From positions 1 through 33,831 of the forward strand of contig JAIXPC010000010.1 of NCBI GenBank assembly GCA_027486415.1: a stretch of DNA of 33,831 nt. The letters are read 5' to 3'. The position numbers and the translations under genes are program-made. A model generated the notes under the pieces. It saw nothing but the letters and a program-made list of their open reading frames with translations. It was not told the DNA's origin and did not search any database. The DNA is from Sphingomonadales bacterium. GTDB taxonomy: Bacteria > Pseudomonadota > Alphaproteobacteria > Sphingomonadales > Sphingomonadaceae. Below, in pieces: positions 19,734 through 33,625 of this stretch (its first letter is position 1; every line of letters begins with the position of its first letter).

Positions 19734-22325
<2,592 letters not shown>

Positions 22326-23801
22326 TCAGAAGCCTGCAACCAATTGCAGCAGCCCCTGGCGGCCGCCACCGCCGCCGCCAGCATTGCTGACGCTCGCCAC
22401 CAGCCGCAGCCGGTCGCCGATCTGGCGTTCGATGCTGGCGTCCACGCCGCCATATTGCCCGGCGCGGTGACGCACGCCGACGGTCACCGCCCACGGACCG
22501 GTTTCCAGCGTGGCGCGGATAAGGCCGGCAAAGCGCGGCACCGGCAGCGGCGTCAGGTCGGCGCGGTCATGGTGGGTGGCGAGCGCGGTCAGCGCCAATT
22601 GCGCGTTTGCGCCGACCCGCCCGCGCCAGCTTGCCGAGACGTCCAGTGCTTGCACCCGCGCCGCGCCGGCTGATTGCCAGCGCCGGTCGAGCGTCAGCGC
22701 GAAGCCCGGCACGAAGGCCGGCGTGGCGATGAGGCCGAGGCTTTGACTGGTGCCGCTTGCCTGCGCGAATTGGTCGATGCCGCGCCCGGCCTGGCCACGC
22801 ACAACAATGCCGGGAAACGCCTCCCAGCGGCCACCCGCCTGCCACAAGGTTTCCGACCGGCCAGCCAGCCAGGCCTGTCGCACGCCCACGGTTGCGACCA
22901 GGTTTTCCGCTGCCGGGCGGTCCTGCACCAGCGGCACGGCGGCTTCGGCGAACAATTCGCGCGCACGCACCACCGCACCGCCCAGCCGCAAATGTCGCCA
23001 CTCCGCCCCGGCAGCAAGACTGATCGGCTCGGCCGCCGCCGGCAGGGTCAACCCGGTGGCACCGCTCACCACGGCGCGCGCCTGCGCCAGATTGCTGCTT
23101 GATGCACCATCATCTTGCCCGCCACGCGCAGCTGCCAGCCGCCACTGCCAGCGCGTGCCGCCGGATATTCCCAGCGCCGCATCATGCCAATCCGAACGGA
23201 TGCCGCCATCGCGCCGGCTGGCAAACAGCCCGCGTCCCCAGACCGCCACCTGCCCCACCGTCTGCTCAAAGCGCCCGGCCAGATGCCAGCGCGACTGCGC
23301 CGATGCCGCCAGCCCGCCCGGCCCCGGCACCGCGCCGCCCCGGGTGAAGCCGCCGCCCAGCCAGCCGCCCGCGCCGCCCAGCCGCAGGTCAACGACACCG
23401 ATGCCACGCCCGGCCTGCACACCAGCGCCGGCGAGCAGGCGGCTTTCGCCCGCCGCCATCTTGAGATCGATGCTGCCGGCAAGGCTGCCCGCCCCTTGGG
23501 CGGCACCGCTGGCCCCGGCCATCAGCCGTGCGCCATCAATCACGCCCAGCGGCAGCAGCGCCAGATCGACAATCCCGCTCGCCACCGGAGCCAGCCGCAG
23601 GCCGTCCAACATCACCAGCGAGCCCGGCAGGCCCGACACCACCAGCCCGCGCGCGGCTGGCACCAGCGCCGGCCAGTCGGCCAGTGCCTCGCCAGCCAGC
23701 ACCGCCCCGCGCCGGCGCAGCGTATCGGCCGAAAGCGCCTGTTCGGTCACCACCGCCGGGCGGGCGGCGGCATCGATGTGGCTGGCGGGCGTGAACTCCA
23801 T
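22326..23801 (-). CDS. Shortened TonB-dependent-receptor-like protein without signal peptide
   Basis: This is a 491-residue protein. The N-terminal 115 residues look like a TonB-receptor plug: VVTEQALSADTLRRRGA, then GLVVSGLPGSLVMLDGLRL and GSLAGSIDLK, which parallel [11 protein letters not shown] and [10 protein letters not shown] in the large receptor of this window. The remainder has the alternating pattern of beta-barrel strands and ends in phenylalanine (LLQLVAGF), as outer-membrane proteins do. Two things are odd: the barrel part is only about 375 residues, and no signal peptide is present. An in-frame TAG four codons upstream prevents extension. It may be a decayed receptor or a specialised reduced one. 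It is divergent from the sulfotransferase-like gene across an inverted repeat. Confidence 0.7.
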   Translation of the reverse strand: MEFTPASHIDAAARPAVVTEQALSADTLRRRGAVLAGEALADWPALVPAARGLVVSGLPGSLVMLDGLRLAPVASGIVDLALLPLGVIDGARLMAGASGAAQGAGSLAGSIDLKMAAGESRLLAGAGVQAGRGIGVVDLRLGGAGGWLGGGFTRGGAVPGPGGLAASAQSRWHLAGRFEQTVGQVAVWGRGLFASRRDGGIRSDWHDAALGISGGTRWQWRLAAARGGQDDGASSSNLAQARAVVSGATGLTLPAAAEPISLAAGAEWRHLRLGGAVVRARELFAEAAVPLVQDRPAAENLVATVGVRQAWLAGRSETLWQAGGRWEAFPGIVVRGQAGRGIDQFAQASGTSQSLGLIATPAFVPGFALTLDRRWQSAGAARVQALDVSASWRGRVGANAQLALTALATHHDRADLTPLPVPRFAGLIRATLETGPWAVTVGVRHRAGQYGGVDASIERQIGDRLRLVASVSNAGGGGGGRQGLLQLVAGF

Positions 23802-23804
23802 CGC

Positions 23805-23850
23805 CCCCTTCTACCGGCTGGACAGGCAAAGGCCAGCCGGCCAGAAGGGG
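23805..23850. repeat. Inverted repeat covering both ribosome binding sites of a divergent gene pair
   Basis: Arms CCCCTTCT + CCGGCTGG (23805-23812, 23814-23821) and CCAGCCGG + AGAAGGGG (23833-23840, 23843-23850) are perfect complements apart from a one-versus-two base bulge, around an 11-base loop. The AGAAGGGG half on each strand is the Shine-Dalgarno-like sequence of the gene on that side. It could be an operator shared by both genes or an RNA hairpin that hides each ribosome binding site. Confidence 0.7.
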
Positions 23851-23858
23851 CCATGACC

Positions 23859-24854
23859 ATGACTGCCGCCCAATTGGCTGCCGACCCCCTGTGGTTTGCC
23901 TGGCGTTTCGACGAGGCTGCCGACGCCTTCCAGTTCCGCCGGCTCAGCCGCGAGGATCATGCCCGCGCCACCTTCCTGACCGAGGAGTATCTGGGTGCAG
24001 CGCCGGTGGAGACGGCGCCGCTGGGCGCGATTGCCGTGCCGCAGCAGGCGCCCATCCACTTCATCTTCCATTCCGCCTTCTGCCTTTCATCGCTGCTGGC
24101 GCGCGCGTTCGAAGTGCCCGGCACCGCCATCGGCCTGAAGGAACCGATGCTGTTCAACGACCTTGCCGGCTGGCAGCTGCGCGGTGCGACCGGCCCGCAA
24201 CTGGGCCGGGCGATGGACGCATCATTGGCGCTGCTGGCGCGGCCGTTCGGCCCGGGCGAGGCGGTGATCGTCAAGCCCAGCAACATCGCCAACGCGCTGA
24301 TTGCCGGCAGCCTGCAGCTGCGCCCGCAGGCGCGCGCCCTGCTGCTGCACGCGCCGTTGCGCGTCTATCTGGGATCGATCACCCGGAAGGGTCTGGATGG
24401 CCGGCTGTGGGTGCGGGATCTGTTGATCAAGCAACTGCGCCAGGGGCTGCACGATTTCGGCTTCGGCCCGGATGAGTATCTGGCGCAATCCGATCTGCAG
24501 GTCGCGGCCATGGGCTGGCTGGCGCAGCACCGGCTGTTTGCACGGCTGGCGCAGCGGCTGGGAGATCGGGTGCGGACGCTCGATTCCGATCTGATCACGG
24601 CGCGGCCCGCGGAGGTGATGACGGCGCTGGCAGGGCATTTCGGCGTGACGCTGGATGTGCCGTCGGTGATCGCCGGCCCCGCCTTCACCCGGCACAGCAA
24701 GCATGGCACCGCCTTTGATGCCACTGCGCGCGCCGCCGAGCAGGCGAGCGAGGCAGCGCATGCGGACGAGATCGGCAAGGTGGCGATCTGGGCGGAGAAG
24801 GTGGCAGAGGCCAACGACATTCCGCTGGCACTGCCCAATCCCCTTATTCGCTGA
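23859..24854 (+). CDS. Sulfotransferase-like P-loop protein (degenerate)
   Basis: This 331-residue cytoplasmic protein is distantly like the sulfotransferase superfamily. HFIFHSAFCLSSLLARAFE (about 67-85) sits where the PAPS 5'-phosphate loop should be, but it lacks the usual G-x-x-R-S/T-G-T. LKEPMLFND (about 93-101) and AVIVKPSNIANAL (about 135-147) resemble conserved segments of proteins annotated simply as sulfotransferase family. Thus the fold is likely, the activity uncertain. Two ATGs are possible (23853 and 23859); the second is eight bases from AGAAGGGG and is chosen. Its last 11 bases overlap the end of the convergent TPR sulfotransferase gene. Proximity to that gene and the PAPS genes suggests a related job. 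Confidence 0.68.
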   Translation: MTAAQLAADPLWFAWRFDEAADAFQFRRLSREDHARATFLTEEYLGAAPVETAPLGAIAVPQQAPIHFIFHSAFCLSSLLARAFEVPGTAIGLKEPMLFNDLAGWQLRGATGPQLGRAMDASLALLARPFGPGEAVIVKPSNIANALIAGSLQLRPQARALLLHAPLRVYLGSITRKGLDGRLWVRDLLIKQLRQGLHDFGFGPDEYLAQSDLQVAAMGWLAQHRLFARLAQRLGDRVRTLDSDLITARPAEVMTALAGHFGVTLDVPSVIAGPAFTRHSKHGTAFDATARAAEQASEAAHADEIGKVAIWAEKVAEANDIPLALPNPLIR

Positions 24855-26286
24855 ATTCCGGATATTCGGCGCGCAGCAGCGCGGCGATCTCGCCGATATG
24901 GGCTTCGTAATGGCGCCAGCGCCCGCGTGAGCGTGCGTGCACCGGCTGGCGCACCTGCCACACTGATGCGGTGCGGATGATCTGATCACCGCTGACCTGG
25001 GCGGCGGCCGGCGTGATGCCGAGTTGCCGGGCCAGGCTGGCGACCACGCCTTCGGGATCGGCGACCAGCGCCTCGTAGCGCACGGTGATGATGTCGTCGC
25101 CAAAACACGCCTGCCAGTGATCCATCAGCCGGCGATAGGCGCGATAATAATGGATCATGTCGTCAAAATCATTAGCGTATGTCAGATTGTCGGCGAACGG
25201 CAGGAAGAACATCGACAGGAAATTGTCGATCGGATCGCGCAGGATGTGGACGATCTTGGCCGCCGGGAAGGCGCGCTTGATCAGGCCGAGATAGAGGAAA
25301 TTGTCCATGCGCTTGTCGGTGAAGGCCGGCACGTCGCCCAGTACGGTGCGGGCAAATTCGCTGTAGCCTTCACGGAAGCGCGCTGCCGCATCATTGACGA
25401 CAGCAGGCGTGATATGCTCGCCAAACTGGCTCATGAACCAGGGCGTGTAGGCCAGTTCGCCGCCCATGGTGACGCCAGCGTGGCGGCCCAGCAACGCTTC
25501 CAGCAGGGTCGATCCCGAACGGAACAGGCCGCAGATGAAGATGGGGTTGGCGGCAGCGGCCGGCACCACCGCCAGCGGTTCGGCGGGGAAGATTGCGGTG
25601 AGCGCGTTCATTTGCGCCGTCACATTGGCCTGCACATGGGCAAGCGGCGAAGTGTGCTTTTGCAAGCGGTTGGCATCCTCGGCCTGCGCGAACGCGTCGT
25701 CGTAACGGCCCATGGCGTCAAGCGCGTTGGCGGCGGCGAAGGTGAGTTCGATCAGGTCATCGCTGTTGCCAACGCTGGCGGCGGCGGCTTCAACGCGCGC
25801 CAGCCCTTCGGCCGGGCGGCCCTGGAACACGTCGATGCCGGCGATGCGGGCGTGGGCACGGCCCGAACCCGGCGCATGGCTCAGCGCCCGTTCATAAGCA
25901 GTGCGAGCGGCGGCGGAGTCGCCCACGTCTTCTTCCAGCTGCCCAAGATTCTGCCAGGCCAGCACAAAGGCGGGCTGGATGGCCAATGCAGTCTGCAGGC
26001 TGGCGCGCGCGCCCGTCACGTCGTGCAGCACTTCAGCCTTCACCGCCGCCATGTTCAGATGCGCCTGTTCGGGATCGGCCAGCCCGGCATCGATGGCGCG
26101 CTGATAAGAGGCCAGCGCGGCGTGGGGATCGAGCAGCTGGCGCTGGCACCAGCCAAGATTGAACCAGCCATCCGCATCATCGGGATGCTGCTGCAGCCAG
26201 GCTTTCAGCAGGTCGGCGGCTTCGGCCGGGCGGCGCGCAGACAGGGCGGCACCGATCTGTTCGGCGGTGATGCTGGGTTCGGTCAT
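24844..26286 (-). CDS. TPR-repeat sulfotransferase (Sulfotransfer_3, tyrosylprotein sulfotransferase-like)
   Basis: This 480-residue cytoplasmic protein has tetratricopeptide repeats at about 1-230 (for example DADGWFNLGWCQRQLLDPHAALASYQRA and a following unit ending in AYERALSHAPG). A PAPS-dependent sulfotransferase domain follows at about 245-480. The 5'-phosphosulfate loop is FICGLFRSGSTLLEALL (250-266), the probable catalytic Glu277 lies in GGELAY, and the 3'-phosphate site is ILRDPIDNFLS (Arg350, Ser358). VRYEALVADPEG and TASVWQVRQP complete the fold. TPRs probably select a protein or peptide partner. It is 40 bases downstream of cysNC on the same strand, so it should draw PAPS from its own operon. 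No strong Shine-Dalgarno is seen at this ATG. Confidence 0.93.
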   Translation of the reverse strand: MTEPSITAEQIGAALSARRPAEAADLLKAWLQQHPDDADGWFNLGWCQRQLLDPHAALASYQRAIDAGLADPEQAHLNMAAVKAEVLHDVTGARASLQTALAIQPAFVLAWQNLGQLEEDVGDSAAARTAYERALSHAPGSGRAHARIAGIDVFQGRPAEGLARVEAAAASVGNSDDLIELTFAAANALDAMGRYDDAFAQAEDANRLQKHTSPLAHVQANVTAQMNALTAIFPAEPLAVVPAAAANPIFICGLFRSGSTLLEALLGRHAGVTMGGELAYTPWFMSQFGEHITPAVVNDAAARFREGYSEFARTVLGDVPAFTDKRMDNFLYLGLIKRAFPAAKIVHILRDPIDNFLSMFFLPFADNLTYANDFDDMIHYYRAYRRLMDHWQACFGDDIITVRYEALVADPEGVVASLARQLGITPAAAQVSGDQIIRTASVWQVRQPVHARSRGRWRHYEAHIGEIAALLRAEYPEFSE

Positions 26287-26326
26287 GTGCGGCGGTGTTT
26301 CACGAGTGGAAGGAAAAGAAAAGGGT

Positions 26327-28171
26327 TCAGGGCAGGATCCGGCGCTCGCGCAGGGCGGCAATGATCCGTTCCACCGCCTCATCGATGCTGGTTTCACCGC
26401 CGGCGATGACCAGATCGGGCGCTTCGGGCGCTTCGTAGGGGCTGTCGAAGCCGGTGAAGTTGCGGATCTCGCCGGCCCTGGCCTTGGCATAAAGCCCCTT
26501 GGGATCGCGGGCCATGCACAGATCGATCGGCGTATCGACGAAGATTTCGATGAAGCGATCCGCCCCCACCCGCTCGCGCGCCAGCTGACGTTCGGCGCGG
26601 AAGGGCGAAATGAAGCTGCAGGTGGTGATCAGGCCAGCATCGGCCATCAGCCGCGCCACTTCTGCGATGCGGCGGATATTCTCCACCCGGTCGGCATCGG
26701 TGAAGCCAAGGTCGCGGTTGAGCCCGTGACGGACATTGTCGCCATCCAGCGCATAGGTATGGCAGCCCAACGTGGCGAGCCTTGCCTCCAGCGCACTGGC
26801 GATGGTGGATTTGCCCGATCCGGACAGGCCGGTGAACCACAACACTGCCGGCTGGTGGCCCTTCAGGGCGCTGCGCTGGGCCTGATCGACCGCCATCGCC
26901 TGCAGATGGACGTTGGCGGCGCGGCGCAGCGGGTGGAGGATCATGCCGGCGCCCACCGTCTGGTTGGTGAAGCGATCGACGAGGATGAAGCCGCCCGTCT
27001 GGCGGTTGTCGCCATAGGCGTCGAAGGCCAGCGGGGCAGAGGTATCGATATTGGCCAGCCCGATCTCGTTCATGGCCAGCGTGCGCGCCGGGCTGGGATC
27101 GCCGCTGGTCACGTCGATGCGATGCTTGAGCAGGGTGACGGTCGCCGTGGTGGCGAACGGGCCGGCGCGCAGGTGATAAGGCCGGCCGGGGATCATCTCG
27201 TCGCCATGAAGCCACAGCAGATTTGCGGCGAATTGCTGGGCCACGTGCGGGCGATCCGTCGGCGGCGCGAGCAGATCACCGCGCGAGACATCGATTTCAT
27301 CAGCCAGCAGCAGCGTGATGGCATCACCGGCGCGGGCTTCGGCCAGATCGGCATCGGCGGTGACGATGCGCGCGATGCGGCTGGCAATGCCGGAACGGGC
27401 GACCACGACGGGATCACCCACCGCCATGCGGCCACTCACCAGCGTGCCGGCAAAACCGCGGAAATCACCATCGGGACGGTTCACCCACTGCACCGGGAAC
27501 CGCGCTGGCAGATGCGCGGTGTCGGCAGAAATTTCGACGGTTTCCAGGTGATCCAGCAGGGTCGGGCCGTCATACCATGGCATGTCGGCGCCGCGCGCCG
27601 CGACGGTGGCGCCAGCCCTCGCCGCCATCGGAATCGCAGTGATGTCGGCAAAGCCAAGCCCTTCGGCCATGGTGCGATAATCGGCCACGATGGCACGGAA
27701 CGCCGCCTCGTCGTGGCCGACCAGGTCCATCTTGTTCACCGCCAGCACGACGTGTCGGATGCCCAGCAGGGCAAGAATGCGGGTGTGGCGGCGCGTTTGC
27801 GGCAGCAGGCCCTTGCGCGCATCGACCAGCACGATGGCGAGATCGGCGGTCGAGGCGCCGGTCGCCATGTTGCGGGTATAATGTTCGTGGCCCGGCGTGT
27901 CGGCCACGATGAACTTGCGCGCCGGCGTTTCAAAGAAGCGATAGGCGACATCGATGGTGATGCCCTGCTCGCGCTCCGCCTCCAGCCCGTCGAGCAGCAG
28001 GGCGAAATCGATATCCTCGCCGGTGGTGCCGTGCTTGCGGCTGTCGCGCGCCAGGCTGGCCAGCGTGTCTTCCATGATCAGCTGGGTGTCGTGCAGCAGG
28101 CGACCAATCAGCGTCGACTTGCCGTCGTCCACCGATCCGCAGGTGAGGAGGCGCAGAACGGCAGCGGCCAT
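26327..28171 (-). CDS. cysNC: Bifunctional sulfate adenylyltransferase subunit 1 / adenylylsulfate kinase
   Basis: This 614-residue fusion makes PAPS. The N-terminal CysN GTPase (about 1-420) has GSVDDGKST (12-20), [12 protein letters not shown] (from 91) and NKMDL. With CysD it drives sulfate adenylation using GTP. The C-terminal CysC APS kinase (about 425-614) has Walker [10 protein letters not shown] (448-456), [15 protein letters not shown], the active-site serine loop FISPFR (Ser522) and [17 protein letters not shown]. NodQ and RaxQ-type proteins share this fusion. The start ATG overlaps the cysD stop (ATGA), giving tight coupling. The TPR sulfotransferase gene follows by 40 bases; no cysH, cysI or cysJ is nearby. 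Confidence 0.96.
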
Positions 28172-29169
28172 CAGAAATACCCCTGCCGCTTCTTCTTTTC
28201 CATCGATCCGGCCTCGTCGTGATCGATCACCCGGCCCTGCCGTTCCGATGTGCGGGCAGCGGCCATTTCGGCGACGATCGCGGGCAGCGTGGTTGCTTCG
28301 GATTCCACCGCCCCCGTGAGCGGATAGCAACCCAGCGTGCGGAACCGGATGCGACGCATTTCAGGCTGCTCGCCGGAGCCAAGCGGCAGACGATCATCAT
28401 CGACCATCAGCAGAACGCCATCACGGATCACGGTGGGGCGCACATCGGCGAAATAGAGCGGCACGACCGGGATTGCCTCCTCGGCGATGTAGCGCCAGAT
28501 ATCCAGCTCGGTCCAGTTCGACAGCGGAAACACGCGCATCGATTCATTGGGGCCGAGCCGCGTGTTGTACATCGACCAGAGTTCGGGACGCTGGTTACGC
28601 GGATCCCAGCCCTGGTTGGCATCGCGGTGGGAAAAAATGCGCTCCTTGGCTCGCGACTTTTCCTCGTCGCGGCGGCCGCCTCCGATGGCGGCGTCAAAGC
28701 GGCCCTGCGACAGGGCCTGCAACAGGCCTTCGGTTCGCATCACGTCCGTGTGCAGCGCCGAACCGTGGACGAAGGGGCTCAGGTTGCGCGCCCGCCCCTC
28801 TTCATTGACATGAACCCGGATATCGATGCCGAGCGCATCGCGCAGCGCATCGCGAAATTCACCCATCGCCTGGAATTCCCACAGGCTGTCGATGTGCAGC
28901 AACGGGAACGGCGGTCGCGCGGGCCAGAAGGCCTTCAGCGCGAGGTGCAGCATCACCGTCGAATCCTTGCCGATGGAATAGAGCATGACCGGGTTGCGGA
29001 AGTCGGCGGCCACTTCGCGCAGGATGTGGATGGATTCCGCCTCCAGCCTGGCGAGGTGCGGAGACAGCGGTGTGGTGCGGGGGTGCCGCATCGCCGCAGG
29101 ATTGGGCCGGCCATCCGGCAGGCGGAACCGCCGCGCATAATCGGCAATGGCGGGCGGCAAATCATGCAT
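28171..29169 (-). CDS. cysD: Sulfate adenylyltransferase subunit 2
   Basis: This 332-residue ATP-pyrophosphatase-fold subunit activates sulfate to APS together with CysN. Visible features are [16 protein letters not shown], the PP-loop [17 protein letters not shown] (SIGKDS at 65-70), [15 protein letters not shown], the strongly conserved [36 protein letters not shown], and the CysD C-terminal tail [15 protein letters not shown]. The ATG at 29169 gives about 30 residues more than usual and has no clear Shine-Dalgarno; ATG at 29091 would give 306 residues, nearer the family norm, so the start is uncertain. It lies just 26 bases after a strong terminator of the upstream receptor gene, and overlaps cysNC. 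Confidence 0.95.
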
Positions 29170-29195
29170 GGAATGTTCTTTAATCAGTTCGGCGC

Positions 29196-29230
29196 AAAGA
29201 AAAAGGGGCGGGCCGTTTGGGCCCGCCCCT
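29196..29230 (-). terminator. Strong intrinsic terminator of the large TonB-dependent receptor gene
   Basis: Perfect 11-bp arms AGGGGCGGGCC (29204-29214) and GGCCCGCCCCT (29220-29230) flank a five-base loop. On the minus strand the stem is followed by TTTTTCTTT. It sits 25 bases after the receptor stop codon and directly before cysD on the same strand. Confidence 0.92.
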
Positions 29231-29254
29231 CGTTCCTTTGGTGTCGCTATCCGA

Positions 29255-32194
29255 TCAGAAGCGAACGCCCAGGGTGACCGTGTAACGGCGACCCAGCGCG
29301 TCGTACGACGACGGATAGGTGTTGCCGCTGTTCTGGCCCGTGGTGCCCAGGGTCGAACCCACGATCGGCGGCTGCTTGTCGAACAGGTTGGCAACCAGGA
29401 AGTCCAGGTTGACATTGTCCATGACCTTGAAGCCGGCCGACAGATCGAACAGGCTGTAGGCGCTGATGCGGTTGAAGTCATAGGTCTGACCAACCAGCGG
29501 GCCGAAGCCGGCGATCGCACCCGAGAAGGCACGGCGCGTGTTCTGCAGACGCCATTCATAGTTCACGGCGGTCATGAAGCGCCACAGGGCCGACACGTTG
29601 AACGAACCGAAGTCCAGCGTGGAGCGGAAGTTGTGCTGCCACTTCGGCTGGATCGAGCCGCAGTTCACCGAGTACTGACCGACGCACTCACGGTTCACCG
29701 CCGACGGGGTGGCCTGGAAGTAGTTGTCGATCGTGTAGGTGCCGTTCAGGTTCAGGTTCAGCTTCGCGAAGCCGACATCCGTCGAGTAGGCGGCGGTGAG
29801 GTCGATACCGCTGGTATCGATGCGGCCCAGGTTCGACAGCGGGGTCGGCAGACCGGCGACGTTGCCCGACGGACCCGACAGACGGCCGTTGACCGGGTTG
29901 CGACGGATGCCGGTGCAGGCCGCGCTGGTGGCCGAAGCCGCCGTGATGCTGCTGAAGCAGGCGTTGATCACGTCAGCCGGGGTCGGCGACGAAACGGCGC
30001 CGTTCACCTTCACGTTGAAGTAGTCAACGGTGATGCTCAGACCCGGGGCGAATGCCGGGGTCAGCACCGCGCCGACGGTGAAGGTGTCAGCCACTTCCGG
30101 ACGCAGGTTCGGGTTGCCACCGCCGGTGGCGTTGGCCTGGCCAGCAGCCGGATCCTGGATCGAGCCAGCGGCGATCATGGCAGCCGTCGCACCCTGCGCG
30201 ATGCAGACCGCGCTCAGGTTGGCGTTGCCCTGGGCCTTGGTGCCCGAGCACGGGTCAACCGACAGGCTGGTCAGACCGGTGACCAGCGGCGCGAACAGTT
30301 CACCGATGTTCGGCGCACGCACGGCGCGCTGATAGCCACCGCGCAGCTTGAGACCGTCAACCGGCGCCCAGGTGGTGCCGACCTTCCAGGTGGTGGCGTT
30401 GAACGACGGGTTGCCCGGCGCGTTCACTTCGTAACGCGACTGACGGATACCGGCTTCGACCGACAGCGACTTGAAGAACGGCTTGTCTTCGACAACCGGC
30501 ACGTTCACTTCGGCGAAGCCTTCGACGACGTTGTAGCCGCCACGGAACGGCAGGATGGCGCCGCCGCCGCCGCCCAGTTCGCCCGGAACCTGGCTCAGCA
30601 CGTCCGGCACGCGGTTGAAGGTGTAGTTGCGATACTCACCGCCGACCGCGAAGTTGATCGGGGTGGCCGCGAACGGCGAGGTAACGCCCAGATCGCCGTT
30701 GACGAGGCCGCGAACCTGGCCGAGGCCGGTGTCGACGGTCACGCCCGAGGTGCCCTGGATGAAGTTCACCATGGCCGGGGTGATCGAGCCCGGGCCGCCG
30801 AACAGGTTCAGCGGAACGCAACCCTGCGCGGTGTTGCGGCACGCCGTGGTGCTGTCAGCCAGCAGGGCCTGCGAAACGCGCGAACGCAGCGTGTAGCCGC
30901 TCTGCGTCTGGACCTGGTTCGACTGGCCGTAAGCGGCGTGGACGTCGAAATTGATCGAGTCGGTGATCGCGCCGCGCACGCCGACCTTGTAGTCGAACAT
31001 GGTGGTGACGAACTTGCTGACGCGCGGACCAACTTCAACAGTACGGCGATACACGGCCGGGATGTTGAAGGTGGCGGTCGAACCCGCCGAGCAGTCCAGC
31101 GTCGGGTTGGCGGCGCAGATGGTGGCGCGCTGACCGGCCGAGATGAACGGGTTGTTGATGTTGACGTTCAGCGACTCACCGAAGATGCCCGACGGGGCGA
31201 TGATCGTGGTCACGCTGTTCTTCGAGAAGATCCCGCGGCCATAGATTTCGATGTTGTCGGCCACTTCATACTTCGCTTGGGCGAAGATGTTGAAACGCTC
31301 GAACGGGGTCTGGAAGATGTTGAACGGCGCGAAGTTGAAGCCGTCCTGGTTGGCGGTCACGAAGCCCGAACCCGTGGCGTTGTTCTGCAGCGCCAGCGGC
31401 TGGGTGGCCGTGAAGTAGAAGCTCGACGGGGTGTCAGTCGGCGAACCGCCGGCCGCGCGGCCGTTGAACGAGTTGATCTGGAACAGCGAGAAGTCGCGGT
31501 CACCCTGATAGACCGGATCGGTCTTCTGGTAGCCGAGGCTGATCACGGCGTTACCCTTGCCGTCGGCAAAGTCACCGCCCATGGTGACGTCGGCACGGAA
31601 GGCGTTGCCATCGCCGCGCTCGGTCAGGCCGTACGACACACGGGCGTCAAGGCCCGAGAAGTTCTGCTTGGTGACGAAGTTCACCACGCCCGACACGGCG
31701 TCGGCACCGTAGGTGGTCGAAGCACCGCCGGTCAGGATGTCAACGCGGCCGACCAGGGCCAGCGGCACGTTGTTCAAGTCGAAGATGCCGCCCGAACCCG
31801 ACGGAACGATGCGGTCGCCATCGAGCAGCGCCAGGTTGCGCTGGGCGCCGAGGCCGCGCAGGTTGACGAACGCCGCACCGCCGTTGCCGTTGTTCACGGC
31901 CGAACCGATGCTCGGGACGACGCCCGGCAGGTCGCGCAGCAGCTGTTCGGCGTTGTTGATCTGACGGGTGGCGATTTCCTTTTCGCCGACCACGTTGACC
32001 GGGCTGGACAGAACCAGGTTCGGGTTCTTCAGCAGGGTGCCGGTGACGACGATGGTGCCTTCTTCATCGGCAGCAGCGTCGGCGGCGGCAGTGGCCTGCT
32101 GGGCGAGAGCCGGCTGGCTGGCCAGCAGGGCGACGGCCACGAGGGCCGAGCTGCCGATCAGCGCGCGCCGCTTGAGGGAGGTGTTGGTGCTCAC
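29255..32194 (-). CDS. TonB-dependent outer-membrane receptor (OAR-like, cysteine-paired)
   Basis: This 979-residue receptor has a signal peptide at 1-31 (cleavage after QPALA), a TonB box GTIVVTG (46-52) and a plug domain (about 60-180) with [33 protein letters not shown] and [14 protein letters not shown]. The large 22-stranded barrel contains [11 protein letters not shown] and [16 protein letters not shown] and ends in VTLGVRF. Ten cysteines occur only as five close pairs (360/368, 452/459, 649/664, 746/760, 837/845), probably disulfides in outer loops. The GTG at 32194 is preceded by AGAAGAAGGA at good spacing and places the signal peptide correctly; upstream ATGs do not. The ligand is unknown. 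A strong terminator follows. The TPR hydroxylase gene lies upstream on the same strand. Confidence 0.95.
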
Positions 32195-32437
32195 GTGTGC
32201 ATCCTTCTTCTGCGAAAATATTGTGCTGCTGACAGCGCCGGCGAGAAGACGTCCCCATCCCCTTGATCCCCCGGGCACCGCCTGCCTGACCGAAGCCCGA
32301 CAGCGCACGCCAAGCCCTTTTTAGGGGCCTGCAGTGCTCATTGTTGGAAGGGCGACTGCAAGTCAAACGCGCGCGTTGCCAGACGGTGAATCGCGGCCTG
32401 AGTGTTGCAAGGAAACAACAATATGGTCACACCATGA
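32195..32437 (-). other. 243-base leader between the hydroxylase gene and the receptor gene
   Basis: This is the longest gene-free stretch and should hold the receptor promoter. On the minus strand TTGACT (complement of 32361-32366) is a reasonable -35 box, but no matching -10 box is convincing. A 13-base palindrome (32423-32435) lies near the hydroxylase stop. A weak GCCC/GGGC hairpin with an A-rich loop is present near 32317-32332. I see no small gene with a ribosome binding site here. Confidence 0.4.
32423..32435. repeat. Perfect short palindrome ATGGT-CAC-ACCAT
   Basis: Arms ATGGT and ACCAT with a three-base spacer begin three bases past the hydroxylase stop codon and lie about 230 bases ahead of the receptor start. 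It is too short and lacks a T-run to be a good terminator. It could be half of an operator or chance. Confidence 0.35.
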
Positions 32438-33625
32438 TCAGGCGGCGGAAAAGCCCGTCAGGCCCTGGCCATGCGCATCGAGCGCCCGCACCCACTGCCG
32501 GATCAATTCGCGTTCGGCGGTGCCGATGAAGGGGTTCCACGCGTCGACGATCAGGACAGCGCGCAGCTGATCGGTGGGATTGATCGCCTCGTGCTCGATC
32601 GTGTCGTCAAAGGCGAAGGCCTCCCCCTCGATCCATGGCCGGGTTTCGTTGCCGACCCGGAACGTGCAGCCATCGGGCACGATCAGCGGCAGGTGGATGA
32701 TGCTGCGGATGTTGGTGGCACCGGTGTGGGGCGGAATGCGGGTGTTGGGTTTCAGCAGCGAAAAGAACGCCACCGGCCCGCGGCCGGGCAGATCGAGCAG
32801 GGGCAACTGGCTGAGTAGGGCGGCGGTTTGCGGGCAATGCTTGGCCATGGCCGGGTTGGGCACGCCATGTTCGATGAAGAAGCAAGCCGCCCAGGCATCA
32901 CTGTGGTTGAGTTCGGCCCACTGGTTGACGGGCGCGCCGGCCGGATAGCGGACATAAGGGGCAAAACCGCCGCCACCGGCCGCGAGCAGGGATTGCAGCT
33001 CGGCACGGATGACGGGCGTTGCCGCCTCCAGCTGCGGCAGCCATGGAAAGTGGGCGCGGTCGAAATACTGGATCGCGGGGAGATAGGGATAGTTGAGCAC
33101 CAGGGGCTGGTGGACATAGGTTCGGCGCCGGCCGAGCTGGATGTCGATGGCGTGTCGGAACCGTTCAGCCTCATCGCTTGGCGCGGCAGAGATCGCGCTA
33201 TCCAGCGTGGCGGCAAGATGATCGGCCAGGCTGGCCGTGTCGGCCGCGACCAGGGCGCGCGCTTCCGCCAATCCGGCCTGAAAGCCCGGTCCCCCACCGG
33301 TTTCTCCGGCAGGCACGGCCGCAATCAGGCGTTTGAAGTCGCTGAGGGCTGCTGCGTGCTGCCCTTCCGCTCGCGCCAGGCGCCCGCGCGCCAGCAGCGC
33401 GTGCGGCATGTAGGGATCGCGATCGAGGGCGGCGTTGAGCGCGGCCAGCTGGGCCGGACCATCGCCAGCAAGGGCGTGAGCGTTGGCGAGATTGTAGTGC
33501 AGGATCGCAGCCGTCGGATCGGCAGCGACGGCGGCAGTGAACGCGGCGATTGCCTTTGCAGCATCCCCCTGGCGCAGCGCCATCATGCCGGCTTGGTTCA
33601 GCGCAACGGGATCTTGGGCGGTCAT
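32438..33625 (-). CDS. TPR protein with aspartyl/asparaginyl beta-hydroxylase domain
   Basis: This 395-residue cytoplasmic protein has TPR-like helices at about 1-150 (ALNQAGMMALRQGDAAKAIAAF, ILHYNLANAHALAGDGPAQ) and an ASPH-type 2-oxoglutarate/iron oxygenase domain at about 195-375. Predicted iron ligands are His300 (IPPHTG) and His345 (TIEHEA), with Arg355 (LRAVLIVDAWNP) for 2-oxoglutarate. The 45- and 10-residue spacings are almost those of human ASPH (His679, His725, Arg735), and Gly302 replaces the usual acidic ligand just as there. TPR plus oxygenase is also the ASPH layout. It probably hydroxylates Asp or Asn in a protein. It precedes the TonB receptor gene on the same strand; no signal peptide is present. 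Confidence 0.9.
   Translation of the reverse strand: MTAQDPVALNQAGMMALRQGDAAKAIAAFTAAVAADPTAAILHYNLANAHALAGDGPAQLAALNAALDRDPYMPHALLARGRLARAEGQHAAALSDFKRLIAAVPAGETGGGPGFQAGLAEARALVAADTASLADHLAATLDSAISAAPSDEAERFRHAIDIQLGRRRTYVHQPLVLNYPYLPAIQYFDRAHFPWLPQLEAATPVIRAELQSLLAAGGGGFAPYVRYPAGAPVNQWAELNHSDAWAACFFIEHGVPNPAMAKHCPQTAALLSQLPLLDLPGRGPVAFFSLLKPNTRIPPHTGATNIRSIIHLPLIVPDGCTFRVGNETRPWIEGEAFAFDDTIEHEAINPTDQLRAVLIVDAWNPFIGTAERELIRQWVRALDAHGQGLTGFSAA

Follow-up and report, generated by a model that had tools for sequence, protein, structure and literature searches.

The 33,831-base contig JAIXPC010000010.1, which belongs to the 2.7-Mb genome assembly GCA_027486415.1 of a Sphingomonadales bacterium, was analyzed as a whole and is referred to here as the window. 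Between positions 22326 and 33625, it contains a block of seven genes encoding a TonB-dependent receptor, a hydroxylase of the aspartyl/asparaginyl beta-hydroxylase (AspH) type with tetratricopeptide repeats (TPR), a TPR-sulfotransferase, a second protein with a sulfotransferase fold (ST2), CysD and CysNC for the synthesis of 3'-phosphoadenosine 5'-phosphosulfate (PAPS), and a reduced receptor-like protein. This inventory had been proposed in a sequence-only reading of the window, and open reading frame (ORF), Pfam, and NCBIfam scans confirmed all seven genes in their places. Comparison of gene content among related genomes shows a recurrent unit, often located by clpB in Sphingomonadales, that consists of a TonB receptor, the TPR-AspH hydroxylase, and one or two PAPS-type sulfotransferases. 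The genes of this unit changed together and apparently also moved together, and counterparts are found beside other TonB receptors. We favor the interpretation that the block is a receptor-linked protein-modification cassette in which cytoplasmic TPR-guided enzymes would modify the receptor before its export, and we put the probability of this interpretation at slightly under one-half (about 0.48). Both the substrate and the chemistry are inferred, with the receptor as the most economical candidate for the former.

Recurrence of the receptor and enzyme genes

Related loci were sampled through ST2, with 40 places in a first set and the best 80 of 290 in a second (the 80-locus set). Fifty-five loci of the latter have full 10-kb flanks (“fully flanked” loci), and presence was counted within 10 kb. 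A TonB receptor was found in 50 of the 55 (49 of them have one at least 41% identical to that of the window, and L147 has a distant one only), the hydroxylase was also found in 50, and both occur together in 45. A small secreted protein, described below, is present in 45, clpB in 35, and the TPR-sulfotransferase in 20. Counts obtained with tblastn agree for the receptor, the hydroxylase, and the TPR-sulfotransferase. Thus, the conserved co-localization in related genomes on which the earlier proposal depended is indeed present. On the other side, xseA, purD, and a gene for an M23 peptidase recur in 15 to 16 of 41 clustered regions, including the window. More distant ST2 copies in the first set (L046 to L052) are accompanied by neither the hydroxylase nor a close receptor.

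Comparison with Novosphingobium aerophilum (L074) points to joint exchange. The receptor (83% identity), hydroxylase (82%), ST2 (77%), and TPR-sulfotransferase (71%) are far more similar between that locus and the window than the neighboring housekeeping genes xseA (50%), M23 peptidase (45%), and purD (55%). Because cassette genes with 71 to 83% identity stand against neighbors with 45 to 55%, the simplest reading is a joint transfer of all four. This transfer would not have included cysD-cysNC or the small secreted protein, since L073 to L075 were found to have neither. The receptor tree places the window with L073 to L075 (Shimodaira-Hasegawa-like approximate likelihood ratio test support of 100) and sets 82 related receptors apart from five more distant ones. 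Compared with its congener Sandarakinorhabdus limnophila (L087), the window has a ClpB that is 95% identical, a receptor that is 53% identical, an ST2 that is 59% identical, and a hydroxylase that is 69% identical, and no TPR-sulfotransferase was found in the S. limnophila locus.

Pairwise distances of the receptor, hydroxylase, ST2, and small secreted protein correlate beyond those of ClpB (partial rho of 0.27 to 0.60 and P of 0.001 to 0.003 in 36 loci), with a value of 0.60 (P = 0.001) for the receptor and hydroxylase. This run followed an unfiltered one: receptors below 500 bits (L147, L129, L043, L102, L078, and L122) or shorter than 850 residues (L119, L129, L078, and L122) were dropped, further length and score filters were applied, and ranks replaced raw distances. 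The unfiltered run, with 39 loci, gave the highest values for the small protein with ST2 (0.47) and with the hydroxylase (0.48) and values of 0.10 to 0.24 for pairs including the receptor, so the ranking differed between the two runs. A correlation of this kind would also arise from joint transfer alone.

The same gene types recur in other settings. At an E-value threshold of 1e-20, 88 of 200 Pseudomonadota genomes contain a match to the TPR-sulfotransferase, and we surveyed 20 such loci, each from a different matching genome, together with 20 control regions. A receptor lies no more than 1.1 kb from the TPR-sulfotransferase in 9 of the 20 loci (within 300 bases in eight of the nine), versus a receptor anywhere in 1 of the 20 control regions (Fisher P = 0.008); an AspH-type hydroxylase is also present in 2 of the 20 loci. 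Among 49 plasmid records with a match, 17 places were viewed. The TPR-sulfotransferase gene is no more than three genes away from a TonB receptor gene in 10 of these (six from Pseudoalteromonas), 3 have an autotransporter, and 4 have neither. In the Pseudoalteromonas places viewed, the receptor and sulfotransferase are neighbors and there is no hydroxylase. One Polymorphobacter plasmid has a receptor and a hydroxylase close together. In Asticcacaulis sp. DW145 (L218), a single row contains a receptor, a Sulfotransfer_2 protein, an AspH-type hydroxylase, a TPR-sulfotransferase, and a 596-residue hydroxylase-sulfotransferase fusion (L218:6138-7925) in which PF05118 (E = 1.6e-14) and PF13469 (E = 2.4e-28) are found in one chain. 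A search of 385 genomes of the class yielded two more full-length fusions: L287:8728-10641, with no receptor in the 20 kb fetched, and L288:9430-11355, which adjoins a TPR-sulfotransferase and a 1,477-residue beta-helix protein.

It could be argued that these genes are neighbors by inertia, sharing an insertion-tolerant site with no joint function, and the site is indeed variable, with extra receptors and other genes; in some genomes (L043, L147, and L200), other receptors occupy it. However, the apparent joint exchange, the recurrence and fusion elsewhere, and the distance correlation beyond ClpB all speak against this view, and we regard mere coincidence of location as highly improbable.

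Two side observations concern these neighborhoods. TPR proteins with a 2-oxoglutarate (2OG) oxygenase domain of the PF13759 type recur by these receptors (L073:8084-9874, L069:10533-12071, L192:8066-9679, L231:2357-4249, and L235:7216-9042; the domain was checked with Pfam in L073 and L231 and assigned by a profile match in L069, L192, and L235), and in L073 to L075 such an extra protein adjoins ST2 (PF13759 in L073, profile matches in all three). TPR-sulfotransferases also occur near autotransporter genes in L211 (a plasmid of Enterobacter sp. 638), L221 (Pacificitalea), and L209 (Azospirillum), and in L211 a gene for a family 8 glycosyltransferase lies between the two. These neighbors hint that the TPR-sulfotransferase type may serve other outer-membrane proteins too.

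The modifying enzymes and the supply of PAPS

The hydroxylase (395 residues; positions 32438 to 33625, minus strand) matches PF05118 over the cut-off (E = 3.1e-39), and its catalytic domain aligns with human AspH (E = 1e-23; profile E of about 1e-42). H300, R307, H311, H345, and R355, which we take to bind Fe and 2OG, are invariant among 21 relatives. The order of TPR and oxygenase domains is shared with animal AspH, although the latter is an endoplasmic reticulum membrane enzyme that acts on epidermal growth factor domains, whereas the protein in the window is bacterial, soluble as judged by eye, and paired with sulfotransferases. The best NCBIfam matches are OlsC (85.9 bits against a cut-off of 450) and LpxO (49.6 against 500), both scoring far too low for assignment. 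OlsC and LpxO introduce hydroxyl groups into acyl chains, and glycans are substrates of other sulfotransferases, which would be in line with modification of a surface polymer or lipid. However, among solved structures the oxygenase domain is closest to human AspH, which hydroxylates proteins; no genes for polymer or lipid synthesis were recognized in the block; and a receptor is the commonest partner. All of this makes such a substrate quite improbable.

The TPR-sulfotransferase (24844 to 26286, minus strand) is the sole PF13469 match in its own genome (E = 4.8e-35, over the cut-off) and carries the 5' and 3' motifs RSGST and RDP...S, which presumably bind PAPS. It also has a weak sequence match to tyrosylprotein sulfotransferase 1 (TPST1; E = 0.003). 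With motifs that look intact, both this enzyme and the hydroxylase look functional.

ST2 (23853 to 24854, plus strand) had been described as a degenerate sulfotransferase-like protein, but it does not look degenerate. It has no Pfam match at an E value of 0.1 and no NCBIfam match at 0.01, and its assignment comes from a structure model and profile alignment. The AlphaFold model has a predicted local distance difference test score (pLDDT) of 94, and the top eleven matches in a PDB search with it are one curacin sulfotransferase and ten tyrosylprotein sulfotransferase chains (E = 1e-4 to 6e-4), with moderate template modeling (TM) scores of 0.40 to 0.55. The best of these solved neighbors (E of about 1e-4 and TM scores of 0.41 to 0.55) are the curacin enzyme and tyrosylprotein sulfotransferases of human and tick. 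Alignment of its profile with that of the TPR-sulfotransferase by hhalign gave an E value of 2e-5 and a probability of 77; together with the moderate TM scores, this places ST2 in the sulfotransferase fold. Ten residues are invariant among 23 relatives (R33, F41, H73, S79, E97, P98, K141, N147, W222, and K283), and E97 and K141 may occupy the positions of the catalytic Glu and Lys of TPSTs. The canonical PAPS loop is absent, with an HSAFC-type loop in place of RSGTT. ST2 is therefore better called a predicted sulfotransferase from a separate conserved sulfotransferase-fold family. TPST1 and TPST2 are among its nearest solved folds, but they differ from the system described here in the sequence of the PAPS loop, and the linked receptors are not enriched in acidic tyrosine sites. 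The family is mostly sphingomonad, with members in 79 of 199 genomes of the bacterial family and in 14 of 289 of the class, three of them strong. Tandem or second diverged copies of ST2, 28 to 33% identical to that of the window, are found near the cassette or alone (L050:9716-11644, L034, L059, L061, and L062).

PAPS could be supplied to the cassette by cysD (28171 to 29169, minus strand; NCBIfam NF009214, over the cut-off) and cysNC (26327 to 28171, minus strand; NF004035, E = 7e-289), which encode the small subunit of sulfate adenylyltransferase and the large subunit joined to adenosine 5'-phosphosulfate (APS) kinase. In their own genome, these are the only PF01507 match (28312 to 28995 in the window) and the only strong APS kinase match, and the pair is probably a general source of PAPS as well. 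No CysH was found in this genome, which raised the idea that cysD-cysNC might serve sulfation alone. The genome does, however, have sulfite reductase, and the stated completeness of its assembly is 97.5%. Since 19 of 24 genomes of the genus have at least two PF01507 matches and 5, including this one, have a single match, the lack of CysH may be real or may be an assembly gap. We considered whether cysD-cysNC form part of the conserved unit and rejected this; both are present in 3 of the 55 fully flanked loci. As judged by this distribution, they are a local addition to the cassette, and PAPS synthesis, which the sequence-only reading had counted as part of the system, belongs to the block in the window but not to the unit.

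Candidate substrates

No signal peptide was seen by eye in the enzymes. In the interpretation that we favor, the hydroxylase and sulfotransferases would act in the cytoplasm, with the TPR arms holding the unfolded receptor precursor. The hydroxylase would add a hydroxyl group to Asp or Asn and one or both sulfotransferases would add sulfate, for which PAPS could come, in this genome, from the cysD-cysNC pair lying inside the cassette. The modified receptor would then be exported and assembled, and the added groups might tune its loops or plug for a ligand or against the entry of phages or bacteriocins. A more specific proposal, in which the AspH-type oxygenase makes beta-hydroxy-Asp or -Asn and the sulfotransferase O-sulfates that same hydroxyl (+95.95 Da) on TonB receptors and perhaps on other exported proteins, is raised here because hydroxylase-sulfotransferase fusions, of which there are three instances, are what such serial chemistry would predict; we nevertheless hold it to be rather doubtful. 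To our knowledge, a sulfated beta-hydroxy-Asp or -Asn side chain has not been described.

The receptor gene (ORF at 29255 to 32308, minus strand, with a likely GTG start at 32194) encodes a protein with plug (E = 1.1e-20) and barrel (E = 1.1e-33) domains, both over their cut-offs. By eye only, a signal-peptide-like start and a TonB-box-like VVTGT follow the GTG. Ten cysteines are conserved in at least 98% of the 82 related receptors. A possible modification site is D439 (in the motif FDY, numbered from the ORF start at 32308), which is Asp in every one of the 62 receptors whose locus has a hydroxylase and in 8 of the 15 whose locus has none, with Asn or Gln in the other 7; five short loci with unknown hydroxylase status were left out of this comparison. 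D439 is a lead rather than evidence for a modification site because just two changes occur on the receptor tree.

Several observations weigh against the receptor as the substrate. No receptor residue tracks the hydroxylase convincingly, as even D439 has 2 changes on the tree versus 9 for the hydroxylase gene (sign test P = 0.5). Eukaryotic-type acidic tyrosine sites show no enrichment, occurring in 3 of 20 linked receptors versus 2 of 12 others. There is no nearby receptor in 11 of the 20 surveyed TPR-sulfotransferase loci, and a second AspH-type gene in the genome of the window (G000:C8:232085-232573, L279; a frame of about 580 residues) lies in a 20-kb region where no match to a receptor or to a sulfotransferase was found. 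Furthermore, in 5 of the 55 fully flanked loci (L089, L097, L098, L126, and L137), ST2 and the hydroxylase are kept along with the small secreted protein, but the 10 kb on either side contain no receptor. Because these five retain both enzymes, there may be substrates other than the receptor.

The small secreted protein was the leading new cassette gene in a search for conserved small ORFs around ST2 that covered 99 loci. Members of this two-cysteine family have about 80 to 110 residues from the likely start, a signal peptide as judged by eye, and the pattern C-x6-G-S-x7-C-x-T/S-x3-W. Eight members have no Pfam or NCBIfam match over the cut-off (best stray E values of 2e-4 and 1e-3). In a structure model, residues 31 to 80 form a block with a pLDDT of 88 to 97, and a beta-hairpin (39 to 46 and 52 to 59) with C41, C57, and a GS turn is followed by a helix (60 to 82); no PDB match was better than an E value of 3. 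A TonB-box mimicry by its VTGS sequence was considered and rejected, as the receptor matches are weak (E of 1.9 or worse with the final profile).

This protein could itself be the substrate, in which case its modified form would serve the receptor as a partner or ligand, either secreted or in the periplasm. It is found in 63 loci of the 80-locus set (e.g., L087:9661-9924 and L105:8254-8508), including all five fully flanked loci that lack a receptor within 10 kb, and all 92 of its ORFs in the first listing are oriented opposite to ST2. Beyond ClpB, its distances correlate with those of the hydroxylase (0.45) and the receptor (0.49), and in the unfiltered run they correlate best with the enzymes. 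Among 45 genomes tested, it is present in all 24 with a receptor-type ST2 (close to ST2 in 19) and also in 11 of the 21 others. By clpB without ST2, it lies with a receptor alone in L191, L194, and L200 (the receptor of L200 being of a more distant type), with a PF13759-type TPR oxygenase in L192, and with a hydroxylase in L184. The structured core of the model also speaks for this reading. However, the protein was not found in the window, in its own genome (best E = 0.06), or in L073 to L075, which keep the enzymes and receptor, and no copy was detected in L218, L231, L241, L204, and L235 or in any of the 20 TPR-sulfotransferase loci of the survey. Copies elsewhere are mostly without the enzymes (there is one weak hydroxylase-profile match, in L190), and no Asp, Asn, or Tyr is invariant among 39 members. 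On balance, the small protein is a doubtful substrate. As it is not found in the window, its own genome, or the nearest cassettes (L073 to L075), the enzymes and receptor can do without it. The receptor and small protein may be an older pair to which the enzymes were added as later partners. In other sphingomonads (L186, L188, L193, and L198), copies away from ST2 lie in a housekeeping setting, between glyA/nrdR-like genes and rpsD, as judged by eye.

TonB receptors import ligands, and the enzymes might tailor a peptide or small molecule (similar to a siderophore or to a ribosomally synthesized and post-translationally modified peptide [RiPP]) that is exported and then taken up again through the receptor. 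The same two enzyme types may serve a peptide in lasso-peptide clusters, an observation that also tells against the receptor as substrate: Table 2 of PMC10040529 gives consecutively numbered clusters for a lasso-peptide B2 protein, sulfotransferases, an aspartyl beta-hydroxylase, PqqD, and an asparagine synthase, and the numbering suggests that these genes are neighbors in a lasso-peptide row. However, neither the window block nor the set of genes recurring in related loci includes a recognizable RiPP maturase or exporter; the small-ORF search led to the small secreted protein, and TPR arms would favor protein substrates. We therefore consider a tailored ligand unlikely.

The receptor thus remains the most economical substrate, as the sequence-only reading had proposed, although that claim is weakened by the five loci with no receptor within 10 kb and by the small-protein candidate in relatives. 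For the window itself, the earlier statement that no gene for a small secreted substrate is present still stands. Co-localization, exchange, and recurrence likewise uphold the idea that the parts belong together in one receptor-linked system, from which the supposed degeneracy of ST2 and the inclusion of PAPS synthesis in the unit have to be removed.

Gene layout, known systems, and significance

On the minus strand, the order from 5' to 3' is hydroxylase, receptor, cysD, cysNC, and TPR-sulfotransferase; beyond these lie ST2 (plus strand), the gene for the reduced receptor (minus strand), and clpB (19737 to 22325, plus strand, identified by Pfam), a frequent neighbor that marks the chromosomal site and is context outside the cassette. 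A terminator-like hairpin of 12 pairs (10 of them G-C) with a T-rich tail is found directly 3' of the receptor gene (29203 to 29231, minus strand). It has the longest stem among 8 such sites, a number close to the chance expectation of 7.5. Because this hairpin lies between the receptor gene and cysD, cysD, cysNC, and the TPR-sulfotransferase gene may be a separate transcription unit. A promoter scan found none where 1.0 was expected and is thus uninformative. The ratio of nonsynonymous to synonymous differences (pN/pS) is 0.17 to 0.54 for five block genes in the pairs compared.

The reduced receptor (plug and partial barrel; 22326 to 23801, minus strand) passes the plug cut-off (E = 1.7e-5), its barrel match is under the cut-off, and no signal peptide is evident by eye. 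It is present in 4 loci of the 80-locus set (L080, L081, L084, and L087) and within 10 kb in 2 of the 55 fully flanked ones, and copies from four congeners have a pN/pS of 0.17 to 0.33.

Aah/AIDA-I and TibC/TibA are autotransporter-linked systems with cytoplasmic heptosyltransferases. In both, the gene for an outer-membrane protein adjoins the gene for a dedicated cytoplasmic enzyme, which modifies that protein ahead of its export, as proposed here, and in the window an enzyme gene is likewise adjacent to the gene for an outer-membrane protein. They differ in that an autotransporter is glycosylated, whereas here a TonB receptor would be hydroxylated and sulfated. In RaxX-RaxST, the tyrosine-sulfated peptide system of Xanthomonas, a bacterial sulfotransferase modifies a ribosomal product whose gene is its neighbor (PMC6637879). 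Unlike the block described here, RaxX-RaxST is not known to include a hydroxylase, a TPR arm, or a TonB receptor, and the sulfated peptide leaves the cell through a dedicated exporter. A short tyrosine-containing precursor with an ATP-binding cassette (ABC) exporter was not recognized in the window block or among the recurrent genes of related loci. Lasso-peptide clusters, for which Table 2 of PMC10040529 lists the same two enzyme types, are distinguished by RiPP maturases not seen here: no precursor and no B1/B2 or C maturases are among the Pfam matches of the seven proteins or the recurrent genes of related loci. A full-text literature search, covering few subscription journals and no preprints, found no description of a system that sulfates or hydroxylates in association with a TonB receptor. 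Cytoplasmic enzymes dedicated to modifying an exported protein encoded next to them are known, and the pairing of chemistry and target would be new if the receptor is the substrate.

TonB receptors are the main gates through which scarce nutrients, phages, and bacteriocins enter Gram-negative cells, and they are usually treated as unmodified. The existence of the cassette suggests that bacteria may add chemical groups to receptors of this kind or to proteins that work with them. If the receptor or a secreted partner is hydroxylated and sulfated, this would represent an added layer of control on TonB receptors and would provide a function for the common TPR-sulfotransferases and for bacterial AspH-type proteins.

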